DNA from: an uncultured Gelidibacter sp.
GTDB taxonomy: Bacteria; Bacteroidota; Bacteroidia; Flavobacteriales; Flavobacteriaceae
Reading direction: 5' to 3'
Length of the DNA: 64,000 nt
Assembly (NCBI RefSeq): GCF_947500795.1
Contig: NZ_CANMTE010000001.1
Location: 1,054,001-1,118,000, forward strand
Shown here one piece after another: positions 18,288 through 35,382 of this stretch (its first letter is position 1; each line of letters begins with the position of its first letter). Made by a program: the position numbers and the translations under genes. A model generated the notes under the pieces. The model was not told the DNA's origin. It did not search any database and saw only the letters and a list, made by a program, of their open reading frames with translations.

Positions 18288-19328
18288 ATGAAAGCCCTCA
18301 TCATCGCTTCTGCGCTATCGCTAGTTGGTTCTTGTGCCACGACCAGTTACACTCAGAAAATTGAAAACTTAAAAGAAAGCATTGTTTTTGAACGTCCTGA
18401 AGCTGTTATCAAATATGGCAATACCATTACACCCGATGAACTCAGTGCACATGTTTATAAACTTTCATCTAATGATTTTGAAGGGCGACAAACAGGCCGC
18501 AACGGATTTCACAAAGCTTCAAAGTATCTAAAAGACTTCTATATCAGTAATGATGTGCCGTCGCCATTAGGCAGCGATAACTATTATCAAAGCATCCCAA
18601 AATCGTATTTTACGAAAGATAGTCTTGCCTCGCAAAATGTAGTGGCTTTTATTGAAGGTTCAGAACATCCAGAAGAGATCATTATTCTTTCTGGACATTT
18701 AGATCATCTTGGTACATCTGAAGAGACTACTTATTATGGTGCTGATGACAATGCTTCAGGCACAGCGGCACTTATGGAAATTGCCCAAGCTTTCATCGCT
18801 GCAAAAAAGGAAGGTTACGGTCCTAAACGAAGCATTTTATTCTTGCATTTAACGGCTGAAGAGTCTGGACTTTTAGGCTCTAGTTATTATGTGAAACATC
18901 CTATATTTTCGCTCAATAATACTGTTGCCAATTTAAACATAGATATGATAGGCCGTGTGGACCCTAAACATGACCGACTTCAGGACGACAACTACATCTA
19001 TATTATTGGTGCTGATAGAATCAGTACAGAACTCCATTACATCTCTGAAGCGGCGAATACGTGGTTTACAAATTTAAATCTTGATTATAGCTATAATAAA
19101 GAAGATGAGCCCAACAGATACTATTATCGGTCAGATCATTATAATTTTGCCTACAAAGGCCTTCCGGTTATCTTCTATTTTAATGGCGAACATGAAGATT
19201 ATCATAAACCGACAGACACACCGGACAAAATCAATTATCCGCTACTTCAAAAGCGAAGCCAACTTATTTTTGCAACCGCGTGGTATTTAGCAAATAGTAA
19301 ACACAGATTAAACCCTAATAAGTTATAA
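18288..19328 (+). CDS. M28-family metallopeptidase lipoprotein, short form
   Basis: This 346-residue lipoprotein (lipobox LVGSC, Cys16) is a zinc aminopeptidase-like protein of family M28. All di-zinc and catalytic residues are visible: His137 and Asp139 in GHLDH, Asp153 in GADDNASG, Glu191-Glu192 in TAEESGLLG, Asp219 in NLNIDMIGR and His284 in YYRSDHYNFA. The protease-associated insert found in its neighbour is absent, so the N-terminal region passes directly into the catalytic domain (residue 104 to 116). It is 61% or so identical by eye over the core to the next gene and ends at its own terminator. Confidence 0.9.
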   Translation: MKALIIASALSLVGSCATTSYTQKIENLKESIVFERPEAVIKYGNTITPDELSAHVYKLSSNDFEGRQTGRNGFHKASKYLKDFYISNDVPSPLGSDNYYQSIPKSYFTKDSLASQNVVAFIEGSEHPEEIIILSGHLDHLGTSEETTYYGADDNASGTAALMEIAQAFIAAKKEGYGPKRSILFLHLTAEESGLLGSSYYVKHPIFSLNNTVANLNIDMIGRVDPKHDRLQDDNYIYIIGADRISTELHYISEAANTWFTNLNLDYSYNKEDEPNRYYYRSDHYNFAYKGLPVIFYFNGEHEDYHKPTDTPDKINYPLLQKRSQLIFATAWYLANSKHRLNPNKL

Positions 19329-19367
19329 TTACAGAGTGTTTATTGTTAAAGTTTGTTAAATGAAGAG

Positions 19368-19397
19368 ACGGCAAATGTTAAAATGTGCCGTTTTTTT
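19368..19397 (+). terminator. Intrinsic terminator between the two M28 genes
   Basis: ACGGCA (19368-19373) pairs with TGCCGT (19386-19391), followed by seven T (19391-19397). It lies 40 bases after the first peptidase gene and 40 before the second, so the paralogues are separate transcription units. Confidence 0.8.
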
Positions 19398-19436
19398 GTA
19401 TTATCGCAAATCATTAAAACACATAATCATATATCA

Positions 19437-21017
19437 ATGAAAAAGCTATTCATTATTGCAGGTATTGCCCTGACCACAATAAGTTGTGGTACCTCACCGC
19501 AACAGTCCACAAAAGTAGAGACCGTAAAAACGATATTACCTGTTGATCCAACGGTGTATGCAAACAGCATCACTTCTGATGAATTAAAAGAAATGCTATA
19601 CACATTTGCTTCTGACGAGTTTGAAGGCCGTCATACTGGAGAAAAAGGTCAGAAAATGGCTGCTGAATATTTAAAACAACACTATGTGGCCCTGGGCATT
19701 CCATCGCCTATCTCTGAAGATGATTACTATCAAGAAGTGCCTTTATTGAATCAAAAATCGCCTGAAACAGAAATTACGGTTAATGGTGTGACATTCAAGA
19801 ATTATGAAGATTTAGTAATGTCTGGTGCTTCTGCCACACAAACGATTAATGCTTCAGATATTGTATATGCAGGATATGGCATTGAGGATGAAAAATACTC
19901 CAGCTATAAAGGTTTAGATGTTGAAGGAAAGATCGTTTTAGTTAAAAAAGGAGAACCTAAAAATCAGGATGGCACTTATGTGACTTCAGGAACTAAAGAA
20001 GATACTAAATGGTCAGTAGGAAGACAGGCACTAGCTTCTAAAAGAGATGTTGCACGCAAAAAAGGCGTGAAAGCACTTCTTTTTATGGACGAGGCTTATT
20101 TGAAAATGGCAGCAAATTATATGAAGTCTGCTGCAACTTCTGGTAATGACGGACGTATTACGCTTAAAGACAAGCAAGATGGCATGCTTCAAATCTTAAT
20201 CAGTGAGAAGTTAGGAAAAGCGCTTTTAGCTACTATTGATACTGACGATACTTCAAAATCCATTAAATCAAATTTAAAGATTGACGTGACCAGCAATTCT
20301 GAAGAAGTACATTCAGAAAACGTGGTAGCGTTTATCAAAGGCTCTGAAAAACCAGACGAGATTATTGTGCTTTCTGCGCACTTAGATCATGAGGGTATCA
20401 AAAATGGTGAAATCTATAATGGTGCTGATGATGATGGATCTGGAACTGTTGCTATTTTGGAAATTGCAGAAGCATTTAAAAAAGCTCAAGAAGCAGGTCA
20501 TGGTCCAAAACGTTCTATTTTATTTTTACACGTTACAGGTGAAGAAAAAGGGTTGTTAGGGTCTAGCTATTATGCAGATATTGATCCTATATTCCCATTG
20601 GAAAACACTGTTGCCAATCTTAATATTGACATGATTGGAAGAATTGATCCTAAGCGTGAAGGCGAAAGAAACTACATCTATTTAATTGGATCTGATAAAT
20701 TAAGTACGGAGCTTCACAATATTTCTGAAGAAGTAAACAAGAAATACACAAACATTGAATTAGACTACACGTTTAATGATGACAATGATCCGAATCGTTT
20801 TTACTACAGATCTGACCATTATAACTTTGCTAAAAACAATGTGCCAATTATTTTCTATTTTAATGGAACGCATGACGATTACCACAGACCTTCTGATACT
20901 CCAGATAAAATTGAATATGATTTATTGGAGAACAGAACACGTTTGGTGTTTTATACCGCTTGGGAATTGGCCAATAGAGCGGACCGAATTATTGTTGACA
21001 AAGCAACTGAAAAATAA
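19437..21017 (+). CDS. M28-family metallopeptidase lipoprotein with PA-like insert
   Basis: This 526-residue protein is an M28 zinc peptidase. The start is placed at 19437, where a signal with lipobox TTISC follows. The frame upstream to 19353 runs back through the preceding terminator and is not credible. The order is a lipoprotein signal, an N-terminal segment shared with the upstream paralogue (SDELKEMLYTFASDEFEGRHTG), a protease-associated insert of about 160 residues (NASDIVYAGYGIEDEKYSSY, then GKIVLVKKGEP), and the catalytic domain with SAHLDHEG, GADDDGSG, GEEKGLLG, NIDMIGR and YRSDHYNFA. It probably degrades peptides in the periplasm. It arose by tandem duplication with the previous gene. 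Confidence 0.92.
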   Translation: MKKLFIIAGIALTTISCGTSPQQSTKVETVKTILPVDPTVYANSITSDELKEMLYTFASDEFEGRHTGEKGQKMAAEYLKQHYVALGIPSPISEDDYYQEVPLLNQKSPETEITVNGVTFKNYEDLVMSGASATQTINASDIVYAGYGIEDEKYSSYKGLDVEGKIVLVKKGEPKNQDGTYVTSGTKEDTKWSVGRQALASKRDVARKKGVKALLFMDEAYLKMAANYMKSAATSGNDGRITLKDKQDGMLQILISEKLGKALLATIDTDDTSKSIKSNLKIDVTSNSEEVHSENVVAFIKGSEKPDEIIVLSAHLDHEGIKNGEIYNGADDDGSGTVAILEIAEAFKKAQEAGHGPKRSILFLHVTGEEKGLLGSSYYADIDPIFPLENTVANLNIDMIGRIDPKREGERNYIYLIGSDKLSTELHNISEEVNKKYTNIELDYTFNDDNDPNRFYYRSDHYNFAKNNVPIIFYFNGTHDDYHRPSDTPDKIEYDLLENRTRLVFYTAWELANRADRIIVDKATEK

Positions 21018-21076
21018 ATGTTAAAGTTTTAATAACGAGACGTTTATATAAATAAATTTTATTAAATTTACAGAAC

Positions 21077-21153
21077 GTATTGGGGTGCCCATTTCATTAT
21101 GAGCTGAGATTATACCCATTGAACTTGCTGGATAATGCCAGTGAAAGGAATAC
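21077..21153 (+). ncRNA. TPP (thiamine pyrophosphate) riboswitch aptamer
   Basis: The THI-element hallmarks are present in order: GGGGTGCCC (21082-21090), CTGAGA (21104-21109), ACCC (21114-21117), GAAC (21121-21124), and CTGGATAATGCCAG just after, then TGAAAGGA. The outer helix P1 is GTATT (21077-21081) with AATAC (21149-21153). Such aptamers bind thiamine pyrophosphate and switch off downstream genes. Here a strong terminator begins six bases later. No recognisable thiamine synthesis or transport gene follows; the next frame starts about 215 bases downstream and encodes an unknown protein. Confidence 0.93.
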
Positions 21154-21158
21154 AACAG

Positions 21159-21207
21159 GCAAAGGGAACAAACGATTTAAATATTGTTGTTCCCTTTGTT
21201 ATTTTTA
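21159..21207 (+). terminator. Terminator of the TPP riboswitch expression platform
   Basis: AAAGGGAACAA (21161-21171) pairs with TTGTTCCCTTT (21187-21197), extended by C-G and G-U pairs. It is followed by TTATTTTTAT. Its position six bases after aptamer helix P1 is typical of a transcription-terminating riboswitch. Confidence 0.88.
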
Positions 21208-21369
21208 TAAAATTCCGATCAATAGATGATAAATGATCCTGATTTATTCATTTCATCTGAAATAACTTCCCTAAGTCGTTCAAATAAGGTTATTTAAAAT
21301 AAAACTTGTAGCTTTAAGTAGAAATCAAATCCTTGATTGACGCGTTAATCTTAATCTACTGTTTTTGAA

Positions 21370-21963
21370 GTGAGAGATATTTTATACCATATTGTTCCGA
21401 AATTAGAACCCTTTGATTATTCATTGCATCACGATACGCAATTTATAAATCAGGAATGGGTATTAATTAATGGTATTGAAAATACCAAGGCGATGTATCT
21501 CTTTAAGCCAAATAATGAATTGGTGATTTCTGAAAACAACAACGTCACCAAAACACGGTGGAGTTTTATAAATTCTAACTTCCTTTCGATTACTACAGCA
21601 GATGGAATTGTGCTTATAAAAGCATTTTACAAAGACAAGGATATGTTGGTTTTAAATCAGAAAGCTTCAGACGATTATGCGTTTTTCATTAATGCCAGTG
21701 TTTATAATACTACTATCGACAGTAAGGAAGACATTCAAAAGTATCTGAAGGAAAAATATTTAAAAAAAGCATCACAGCTCATTTCAGAGCATCAGTTTTA
21801 TTATATCCAAAGGTTTAAGGAATATGGGCCATATACCATGAAAGAACTCTTTAACAAGGTTAAAAACAAGGCGGTAAACGCTTATTGCTTGGTAAGAGAT
21901 GTCAATGAGGCGGATTACACTAAGAAACTTCGAATTAAAGATTTAATGCACGAACTAAATTAA
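21370..21963 (+). CDS. Hypothetical protein downstream of the TPP riboswitch
   Basis: This 197-residue soluble protein has no signal peptide and is not recognised. The start is GTG at 21370; no in-frame ATG lies near. Residues about 30-110 look like a beta-rich domain. The last 50 residues (YYIQRFKEYGPYTMKELF and after) weakly resemble the GYF_2/DUF4339 module, with its Y-Y and G-P-x-(S/T)-x-x-E-L pattern. It sits about 160 bases beyond the riboswitch terminator and ends in a terminator shared with lpdA. By position it would be the riboswitch-controlled gene, but nothing in the protein links it to thiamine. Confidence 0.7.
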   Translation: MRDILYHIVPKLEPFDYSLHHDTQFINQEWVLINGIENTKAMYLFKPNNELVISENNNVTKTRWSFINSNFLSITTADGIVLIKAFYKDKDMLVLNQKASDDYAFFINASVYNTTIDSKEDIQKYLKEKYLKKASQLISEHQFYYIQRFKEYGPYTMKELFNKVKNKAVNAYCLVRDVNEADYTKKLRIKDLMHELN

Positions 21964-22019: not shown

Positions 22020-23420
22020 TTAGATATGCAATGCTCTATCTTCAGTAGCTGCTAAGGCTGCTTCTTTAAGCGCTTCAGTAAATGTTGGATGTGCATGAGA
22101 CATTCTAGAGATATCTTCCGCAGAAGCTCTAAATTCCATAGCAACAACCGCTTCAGCAATCATATCTGCCGCACGCGCGCCAATCATATGAACTCCTAAG
22201 ATTTCGTCAGTAGCTTTATCCGCAAGCACTTTTACAAATCCATCCAAATCCATACTTGCTCTACTTCTACCTAGTGCACGCATTGGGAATTGACCTGTTT
22301 TATAGTCTACACCTGCTTCTTTTAACTCCTCCTCTGTTTTACCAACAGATGCAACTTCTGGCCATGTATAAACAACACCAGGAATTAAATTATAATCAAT
22401 ATGAGGTTTTTGTCCTGCTAAGGTTTCCGCTACAAAAACTCCTTCTTCTTCCGCTTTATGCGCCAACATTGCACCTTTAACAACATCACCAATAGCATAA
22501 ATATTTTTTACGTTAGTCTGTAAGTGCTCATTCACTTCAATTTGACCTCTGTCTGTAAGTTTTACACCCGCAGCTTCAGCATTCAAACCATCAGTATATG
22601 GACGACGACCAACAGAAACTAAGCAATAATCGCCTTTAAACTCAACTTCCTCACCTTTTTTGTTGTCCGCTTTTACGATAACTTCATCACCATTACGTTC
22701 AACAGATTTTACTTTATGGGAAACGTTAACGTTGAATTTAGCTTTCTTGAAAACTTTGTTCAACTCTTTAGACAATCCCGAATCCATTGTTGGGATAATA
22801 CGGTCCATATATTCAATAACGGTTACTTCTGAACCTAATCTTCTATAAACTTGACCAAGCTCTAAACCAATAACACCACCACCAATAACGATCAGATGTT
22901 TTGGAATCTCTTTAAGTTTTAAAGCTTCAGTAGAGGTAATAACACGTTCTTTATCTAAAGTGATAAATGGTAAACTTGATGGTTTACTACCGGTAGCGAT
23001 AATAGTATATTTCGCTTCAATTTCTTCAGTTTTTTCACCTGTAATAGTGATATGGGTAGCATCTTTAAACGCTCCCAAACCTTGGTAAACATCGATTTTG
23101 TTTTTGTTCATCAAATAATCGATACCACCAGTAGTTTGATCAACTACGGCTTGTTTACGAGCAATCATTTGCTTCAAATTCACTTTAATTTCACCTGGAA
23201 TATCAATACCATGCTCTTCAAAATGTTTAACAGCATCTTCATAATGATGCGAAGAATCTAAAAGTGCTTTACTTGGAATACATCCAACGTTAAGGCAGGT
23301 GCCTCCAAGGGTTGCATATTTTTCAATAATTGCAGTTTTCATGCCTAATTGTGCGCAACGAATTGCGGCTACATATCCTCCAGGACCTGAGCCAATAATG
23401 GCTACATCATATGAATTCAT
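22020..23420 (-). CDS. lpdA: Dihydrolipoyl dehydrogenase (E3)
   Basis: This 466-residue flavoprotein reoxidises dihydrolipoamide in the pyruvate and 2-oxoglutarate dehydrogenase and glycine-cleavage complexes, making NADH. The start is set at 23420 (MNSYDVAIIGSGPGG), as the FAD-binding fold should begin here; the longer frame to 23456 adds 12 unconvincing residues. The redox-active pair is Cys42 and Cys47 in GGTCLNVGCIPSK. The NAD motif is GGGVIGLELG, and the C-terminal catalytic HPTFTEALKEA is intact. No acyltransferase genes are adjacent. A -7-like box (TATTTTTG on the minus strand, 23463-23456) lies about 36 bases upstream. Confidence 0.96.
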   Translation of the reverse strand: MNSYDVAIIGSGPGGYVAAIRCAQLGMKTAIIEKYATLGGTCLNVGCIPSKALLDSSHHYEDAVKHFEEHGIDIPGEIKVNLKQMIARKQAVVDQTTGGIDYLMNKNKIDVYQGLGAFKDATHITITGEKTEEIEAKYTIIATGSKPSSLPFITLDKERVITSTEALKLKEIPKHLIVIGGGVIGLELGQVYRRLGSEVTVIEYMDRIIPTMDSGLSKELNKVFKKAKFNVNVSHKVKSVERNGDEVIVKADNKKGEEVEFKGDYCLVSVGRRPYTDGLNAEAAGVKLTDRGQIEVNEHLQTNVKNIYAIGDVVKGAMLAHKAEEEGVFVAETLAGQKPHIDYNLIPGVVYTWPEVASVGKTEEELKEAGVDYKTGQFPMRALGRSRASMDLDGFVKVLADKATDEILGVHMIGARAADMIAEAVVAMEFRASAEDISRMSHAHPTFTEALKEAALAATEDRALHI

Positions 23421-23531
23421 AAAAATTGTTTTTTGATGTTTGTTAAATTCAAGCACAAAAATACGATTTTGATTTACGTTTTACGAATTACGACCTACGA
23501 TTTTAAAAAACTTTGAGCAGAGGTTCAAACC

Positions 23532-35247: not shown

Positions 35248-35351
35248 AAAAAAGGCAAGCTACCTACATCACACCGCTACGACCACTTACCTTTGCTGCG
35301 TTCCCGCCCTGGAGGGTTCAGCAGGAGCTGGTTGTGTAGGACTTGCCAGGT
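35248..35351 (-). ncRNA. ffs: Signal recognition particle RNA (small, Bacteroidota type)
   Basis: Read on the minus strand, GGCAAGTCCTACACA pairs with TGTAGGTAGCTTGCC to close a long hairpin of about 100 bases. The apical region contains AGGGCGGGAACGCAGCAAAGG-like sequence, matching the conserved SRP loop with its GGAA-type tetraloop and asymmetric internal loop (about 35298-35318). A T run follows directly on the minus strand (plus-strand A run 35247-35253), giving a terminator. A consensus promoter lies immediately upstream. SRP RNA works with Ffh to target membrane proteins. Confidence 0.9.
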
Positions 35352-35352
35352 G

Positions 35353-35382
35353 CAAAGATACAATCTTTTACTACTTTTGCAA
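35353..35382 (-). promoter_or_regulatory. Consensus promoter of the SRP RNA gene
   Basis: On the minus strand TTG (35382-35380) is followed by exactly 19 bases and then TATCTTTG (35360-35353). This is a full match to the Bacteroidota primary-sigma consensus. Transcription would start within a few bases of the SRP 5' end. Confidence 0.85.

Follow-up and report, generated by a model that had tools for sequence, protein, structure and literature searches.

A TPP-class aptamer with an adjoining terminator as a candidate free-standing small RNA gene of Flavobacteriaceae

Riboswitch-class small RNAs and the element in the window

SroA is the TPP leader of thiB and belongs to a thiamine transport operon. 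In the accessible part of one review, SroA is counted as an enterobacterial small RNA with riboswitch features, the Listeria SAM riboswitch RNAs SreA and SreB are described as acting in trans, and the cobalamin-riboswitch RNAs Rli55 and EutX as sequestering EutV (PMC8383071). Rfp18 and other flavobacterial sRNAs represent small RNAs of the bacterial family studied here; the accessible part of the source links none of them to a TPP aptamer (PMC9723704). A survey of 2007, in its accessible part, foresaw both readings of orphan aptamers. Searching the open-access literature by title and abstract opening, we found no description of a free-standing TPP-aptamer sRNA in flavobacteria.

The window analysed here comprises 64,000 nt from a 1.17-Mb contig of an uncultured Gelidibacter sp. 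(NCBI: GCF_947500795.1; contig: NZ_CANMTE010000001.1) and contains a TPP-class aptamer with an adjoining intrinsic terminator (Table 1). The element resembles the RF00059 TPP riboswitch in its aptamer fold and pyrimidine-pocket motif, but differs from it in that no recognised thiamine gene lies in cis and no switching platform was found, the terminator being apparently constitutive. Like SreA and SreB, it would be a riboswitch-class RNA working as a small RNA in trans; however, SreA is a terminated leader whose gene is controlled in cis, whereas the element appears from its sequence to have no recognisable cis gene. Similarly, a metabolite-sensing aptamer inside a non-coding RNA that controls other genes is found in Rli55 and EutX and may be present here, but in these RNAs the ligand governs the release of the sequestering RNA, and the folds of the element gave no ligand-dependent termination. 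SroA is likewise a TPP-class RNA observed as a small RNA; in contrast to the element, it leads thiamine genes in cis. The known trans-acting riboswitch RNAs (SreA/SreB, Rli55, EutX) are leader-derived or ligand-dependent in their release.

Table 1. Positions of the element and its neighbours in the window
Feature	Position	Strand	Basis
M28 peptidase, neighbour outside the element	19353..21017	+	Peptidase_M28 E 1.1e-42 (Pfam)
TAnnTTTG-like putative -7 box, TAAATTTA	21063..21070	+	inferred from the box in 35/41 copies
TPP-class aptamer	21071..21166; core P1-to-P1 21077-21153	+	RF00059 match, covariation over 41 copies
CUGAGA, presumed thiamine-pyrimidine (HMP) pocket motif	21104..21109	+	CUGA[AG]A in 41/41 copies
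Intrinsic terminator	21159..21208 (pairs 21159-21171/21187-21199 + U-rich run)	+	direct reading; arms covary in relatives
Whole free-standing element as modelled (aptamer + terminator, 135 nt)	21072..21206	+	R1 156.6, R2 138.6 bits (both models trained with the window copy)
197-aa protein, neighbour outside the element, own conserved upstream region	21370..21963	+	
lpdA	22020-23456	-	name from the sequence-only reading and look of the sequence

A covariance-model search (Rfam cmscan) aligned the aptamer with the full RF00059 model (1-105); its score of 58.9 bits (E 5.3e-9) exceeds the family's gathering score of 54.3. A sequence-only reading of the window had described an aptamer with the TPP consensus elements, followed six bases later by a 13-bp terminator, and both descriptions were confirmed. 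Direct reading identified P1 (GUAU/AUAC, 21077-21080 paired with 21150-21153), GGGGUGC from 21082, CUGAGA and ACCC at 21114-21117. The assignment of CUGAGA to the HMP pocket is taken from known TPP structures. The terminator hairpin starts six bases past P1 with a perfect 12-bp stem, CAAAGGGAACAA/UUGUUCCCUUUG (21160-21171 with 21187-21198); the G21159-U21199 wobble adds the thirteenth pair, and a U-rich run follows up to 21208. A simple terminator scan did not report this hairpin, because its loop measures 15 nt and the scan was limited to 8 nt. As an exact pattern, the hairpin occurs at a single site in the 3.46-Mb genome.

The stop codon of the M28 gene lies 54 nt upstream of the modelled element. 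This gene and the one before it (18288-19328) are similar and adjacent, the first being an M28 paralogue by eye. Downstream, the next frame begins 164 nt beyond the modelled element and encodes 197 residues, as the earlier reading had noted, and lpdA follows on the other strand, again in agreement with it. The GYF_2-like C-terminus that had been suggested for the 197-aa protein is a weak likeness that falls short of a family match (12.1 bits against a threshold of 25.8, E 0.17). Three other TPP matches were detected in the source genome; two precede thiC genes and one precedes a TonB receptor, which are usual settings, unlike that of the window aptamer. In the first thi operon of this genome (L055) thiC has 619 aa, in the second (L056, 3689-5547) it is split over two overlapping frames of 164 and 469 aa, and a cis TPP aptamer is present at both operons. 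The window also contains a Small SRP RNA on the minus strand (35249-35355; RF04183, 103.4 bits).

Copies across the Flavobacteriaceae

A covariance model built from eight Gelidibacter copies only (R1) was searched against 397 evenly drawn Flavobacteriaceae genomes and gave 32 matches of at least 77.3 bits, 28 of them outside the training set. The next scores were 65.8, 63.8 and 63.6 bits, also from free-standing sites, and then 60.1 bits from a site before a TonB receptor. Fifty R1 sites (the best 30 loci and 20 of those following) were read in context for a hairpin directly 3' of the aptamer, and 13 of them (L110-L117, L119-L123) were left out: six with Pfam-confirmed TonB receptors, six resembling thiS/thiC leaders, and the ambiguous L116. 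Under R1, L118 and L124 (53.9 and 52.6 bits) do not outscore cis riboswitches; they were retained by eye. The kept sites, together with L047, L059, L061 and L070, form a set of 41 copies, from all of which a second model (R2) was built.

In the same 397 genomes R2 recovered 37 copies of at least 78.5 bits, in 35 genomes and 25 genera; all 37 belonged to its training set, so this result is a census without new copies, and the score gap below them arises partly by construction. Among the lower R2 matches listed (n=35, 58-71 bits), 34 stand in front of genes on their own strand (thiS/thiC, TonB-like receptors and, at L185, a methyltransferase-like gene), and the remaining one is L116. Samples of 395 genomes each from the class and from the order contained no match of at least 78.5 bits outside the Flavobacteriaceae: the two matches at this level in the class sample and the five in the order sample are all from this family. 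The best scores outside the family, 69.6 bits in the class (L125) and 66.8 bits in the order (L180), belong to TonB-receptor leaders by eye. These genome searches were run with strict filters, which weak copies may escape. Only nine of the 41 copies reach the RF00059 gathering score and 32 lie below it; together with annotation that takes function from the downstream gene, this accounts for the element having been missed.

Several sites deserve separate mention. L116 (2001-2130, G253; 70.5 bits under R2), which we kept outside the 41-copy set, has a TPP aptamer with a GGGGAATA/TATTCCCC hairpin behind it, and then an MRJP/SMP-30-like gene (Pfam) on the same strand; it is possibly a further free-standing member or a cis-controlled offshoot. 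Two free-standing copies per genome were observed in G239 (L105 and L094) and in G295 (L100 and L106), and L106 lies upstream of genes whose translations suggest, by eye, that they belong to a conjugative transfer cluster. An opposite-strand tRNA gene stands just 3' of the element in two genomes from a single genus (L079, 1806-1879; L080, 1688-1761). In another family of the class, L140 (G641) shows a TPP aptamer with a CCTCCGG/CCGGAGG hairpin and an opposite-strand next called gene, possibly an independent free-standing case outside the Flavobacteriaceae. Canonical-type TPP aptamers at L185 (G280) and at L152 (G777, other family) precede similar methyltransferase-like genes that share an EWFFNR..DTYE motif by eye and are possibly thiamine-linked.

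Conservation, neighbouring genes and termination

In the alignment of the 41 copies, which was fitted to the same structure and contains related, non-independent species, so that its covariation figures are upper-end values, 90.4% of the pair cells are standard pairs, 28 of the 34 base pairs show both-sided changes, and the cells with such changes number 157 versus 46.2 (sd 6.3) in shuffles, a number that none of 500 shuffles reached. With the partners shifted by 1-3 columns, 15-27 such cells were counted. P1, P2, P4 and P5 covary, as do the terminator arms, in which A-U replaces G-C at two columns, in 4 and in 6 copies. P1 is lengthened toward its 5' end by about three more varying pairs.

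Within Gelidibacter, the aptamer and hairpin are located 3' of the M28 gene in four genomes (G000, G001, G005, L070). Five genomes, G004 and G006 among them, show by eye a plain hairpin at that site and no unit. Three genomes without the unit behind M28 (G003, G007, G008) carry the same hairpin with a diverged aptamer at a second locus, flanked by a 5'-nucleotidase-like gene on one side and by pncB or a beta-eliminating lyase gene on the other. The unit of G. algens (G002, L047) adjoins genes that follow M28 in G003; its contig stops just upstream of the unit, and any M28 neighbour would lie off the contig. The element is dispensable, since in G004 and G006 (two of nine same-genus genomes) no TPP match above 24.5 bits was detected.

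One option left by the sequence-only reading was a remnant from which the thiamine genes had moved away. Elsewhere, the source genome does hold two thi operons, each with a cis TPP aptamer, and the window aptamer scores lower than these aptamers (58.9 bits versus 80.9 and 74.6). However, an alignment of four Gelidibacter genomes gave 88% identity for the element against 50% for the upstream and 35% for the downstream flank, covariation extends over copies from 25 genera, and the bearers mostly lack a ThiC match. We regard decay after loss of a neighbouring thiamine gene as most improbable, and for the free-standing flavobacterial elements the data speak against the 'recently orphaned' reading.

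A TAnnTTT[ACG] box is present directly upstream of the element in 35 of the 41 copies, in 34 of these 17-23 nt before the GGGG of P2; 500 mononucleotide shuffles gave a mean of 9.1 and a maximum of 16, and windows further upstream 3 of 41. We take TAnnTTTG to be the flavobacterial promoter -7 consensus. Judged by this motif, the element probably has a promoter of its own, and the covarying hairpin with its U-run is its predicted own terminator. The unit could instead be a 3'-UTR element of the upstream gene, in the window the M28 peptidase gene, that ends and perhaps stabilises its mRNA. This would agree with the lack of a further visible terminator between the M28 stop codon and the aptamer, with the upstream gene sharing the strand of the element in 27 of the 40 copies where one was called, and with the plain hairpins in the five Gelidibacter genomes that lack the unit at this site. 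But the upstream genes differ between copies, 13 of the 40 copies have a divergent gene upstream and are therefore not the 3' end of its mRNA, and the promoter-like box stands directly before the aptamer. A 3'-UTR origin seems quite unlikely to us, although the element possibly doubles as the M28 terminator.

Genes were called mechanically (ORF of at least 90 aa; doubtful calls include those downstream of L104 and upstream of L091). On these calls, the next downstream gene lies on the opposite strand in 27 of the 41 copies, within 20 nt of the element end in 19 of the 27, and on the same strand in 14. Nine of the same-strand genes were tested against Pfam and proved unrelated to one another: four matched NAPRTase, beta-eliminating lyase, fatty acid hydroxylase and GHL10, and five matched no family, so that for these five an unknown thiamine link is possible. 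The other five are homologues of the tested ones by eye. A recognised thiamine gene follows none of the 41 copies (Pfam for nine of the 14 same-strand genes, the remainder by eye); a thi gene directly 3' of the aptamer in relatives, which the sequence-only reading had named as counter-evidence, was therefore not encountered. With regard to coding, element lengths range from 129 to 145 nt and fall into the three residues modulo 3 with 18, 12 and 11 copies.

The earlier suggestion of a new thiamine-linked gene directed attention to the 197-aa protein. Homologues are present in all eight other same-genus genomes compared and in three of the remaining 50 genomes of the sample; the named relatives carrying one are four Gelidibacter loci and one Mangrovimonas. 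The region upstream of the gene contains a TAGCTTTAA-like box and is conserved in four sequences with the aptamer and in four without. In G. algens the aptamer lies about 2.5 kb from the 197-aa gene, with other genes in between; the gene it faces belongs to the MotA/ExbB family and lies on the opposite strand. The 197-aa gene is an unlikely target of the aptamer, because its upstream region is kept in genomes without the aptamer and because the G. algens aptamer faces a different, opposite-strand gene; we find the suggestion unsupported. Between the element and this gene (21235-21330), CATTTCATCTGAAA..CTAAGTCGTTCAAAT..GTAGCTTTAA is common to eight Gelidibacter sequences with or without the aptamer, possibly as a promoter or operator.

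Fold predictions for the 41 copies gave an average pairing probability of 0.88 for the terminator. When the RNAs were cut after the terminator 5' arm, this arm was paired at 0.17 on average and had no shared partner, so a common antiterminator was not found in these folds. Pairing of CAAAGGG, from the 5' arm, with ACCCAUUG of the aptamer was considered and rejected: the arm reached a mean pairing of 0.17 in the truncated folds, and the variants CAAAGGA and CAAAGAG occur without a matching change in the aptamer by eye. A ligand-free alternative fold was also discarded, as the mean pairing over 41 copies gave mainly the P1 extension and a one-base shift of P2. Since there is no common antiterminator partner and P1 and the terminator do not overlap, termination looks constitutive in these predictions, unlike that of a transcriptional riboswitch.

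These folds bear on a cis attenuator, in which the ligand would determine whether transcription ends at 21159-21208 or continues into the 197-aa gene, or, at other copies, into whatever follows, antisense to a convergent gene included. A strong terminator directly 3' of the aptamer is what such a device would show, read-through into a same-strand gene is possible in 14 of the 41 copies, and L116, with its different hairpin and close same-strand gene, may be an example. Nevertheless, the folds offer no antiterminator with a common partner, the downstream genes differ and none of those tested is a recognised thiamine gene, and the upstream region of the 197-aa gene is kept even where the aptamer is missing. 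We therefore consider attenuation in cis unlikely. On this evidence, the element is very probably a small RNA gene with a TPP-class aptamer.

Ligand pocket and possible function

The pyrimidine-pocket motif CUGA[AG]A is kept in all 41 copies and reads exactly CUGAGA in 39. The canonical J4/5 and J5/4 motifs, which we assume to represent the two strands of the pyrophosphate site, were detected in 5 and 1 of the 41 copies, the window copy not among them, by a crude test that applied one pattern and segment to all sets and does not measure binding. With this test each motif was found in 10 of 10 thiC-type aptamers and in 25 of the 28 taken from other families, of which 27 were located. The TonB-type aptamers of flavobacteria (L110-L112, L117, L122, L123, L057, L063-L065) gave 2 of 10 and 0 of 10. 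As the pyrophosphate motifs are mostly absent, binding of TPP itself may be weak or lacking; however, an altered site need not mean lost TPP binding, because the same change is seen in TonB-type leaders that presumably work. Among Flavobacteriaceae, TPP aptamers with a remodelled phosphate site may be common, and the ligand of the element may be TPP bound in such a site, thiamine or a thiamine precursor.

The missing pyrophosphate-loop motifs would also suit an aptamer that senses nothing and serves as a stable scaffold round a hairpin binding a protein or an mRNA, and the terminator arms are conserved at least as well as the aptamer. A mere scaffold, however, has no need to retain a ligand pocket, whereas CUGA[AG]A is invariant and P1, P2, P4 and P5 covary. 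We hold a purely structural role to be very improbable.

ThiC (PF01964) was found in 4 of 38 bearers versus 9 of 42 non-bearers, the latter being the first of the genome list and not a random draw. This distribution gives no clear association of the element with thiamine synthesis. With ThiC in only 4 of 38, a recognisable pyrimidine synthase is missing from most bearers. In 11 of the 38, no TPP match at E 0.001 was found besides the free-standing copy.

Read from sequence, the element is a conserved aptamer-terminator unit with a promoter-like box that recurs across the family and appears to lack a recognisable cis target. From this we infer transcription as a discrete unit, ligand binding and trans action. 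Transcription would start at or slightly 5' of P1, from the promoter ending in TAAATTTA. The polymerase would copy the aptamer and halt at the terminator a few bases on, whether or not ligand is bound, and would release an RNA composed of a ligand-binding domain, a 3' hairpin and a U-tail. TPP or a related thiamine compound would then lock the aptamer fold and thereby alter the stability, pairing or binding partner of the RNA, which would act in trans on other genes. The terminator loop varies across copies and thus offers no obvious conserved pairing seed.

On balance, the probable explanation as a whole is a free-standing sRNA gene of about 130 nt that is no gene's leader, works in trans and senses a thiamine compound. 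The short regulatory RNA among the options of the sequence-only reading is thereby supported as an sRNA gene of its own, and given up as the aborted leader of a thiamine gene. More tentatively, and with less confidence than we would need to favour it, the copies could form a Flavobacteriaceae family of dedicated metabolite-sensing sRNA genes, in which a phosphate-altered aptamer, mostly in genomes without ThiC, would relay the level of TPP or a precursor to distant genes in trans, with no gene controlled in cis.

In these bacteria the orphan state is a conserved state, kept in copies from 25 genera together with a promoter-like box and a terminator, and the question of orphan aptamers thus becomes directly testable. 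Our results suggest that annotation based on the next gene overlooks free-standing aptamers. If the RNA does sense such a compound, flavobacteria that need thiamine or its precursors from outside may use it to link their metabolism to the vitamin supply.
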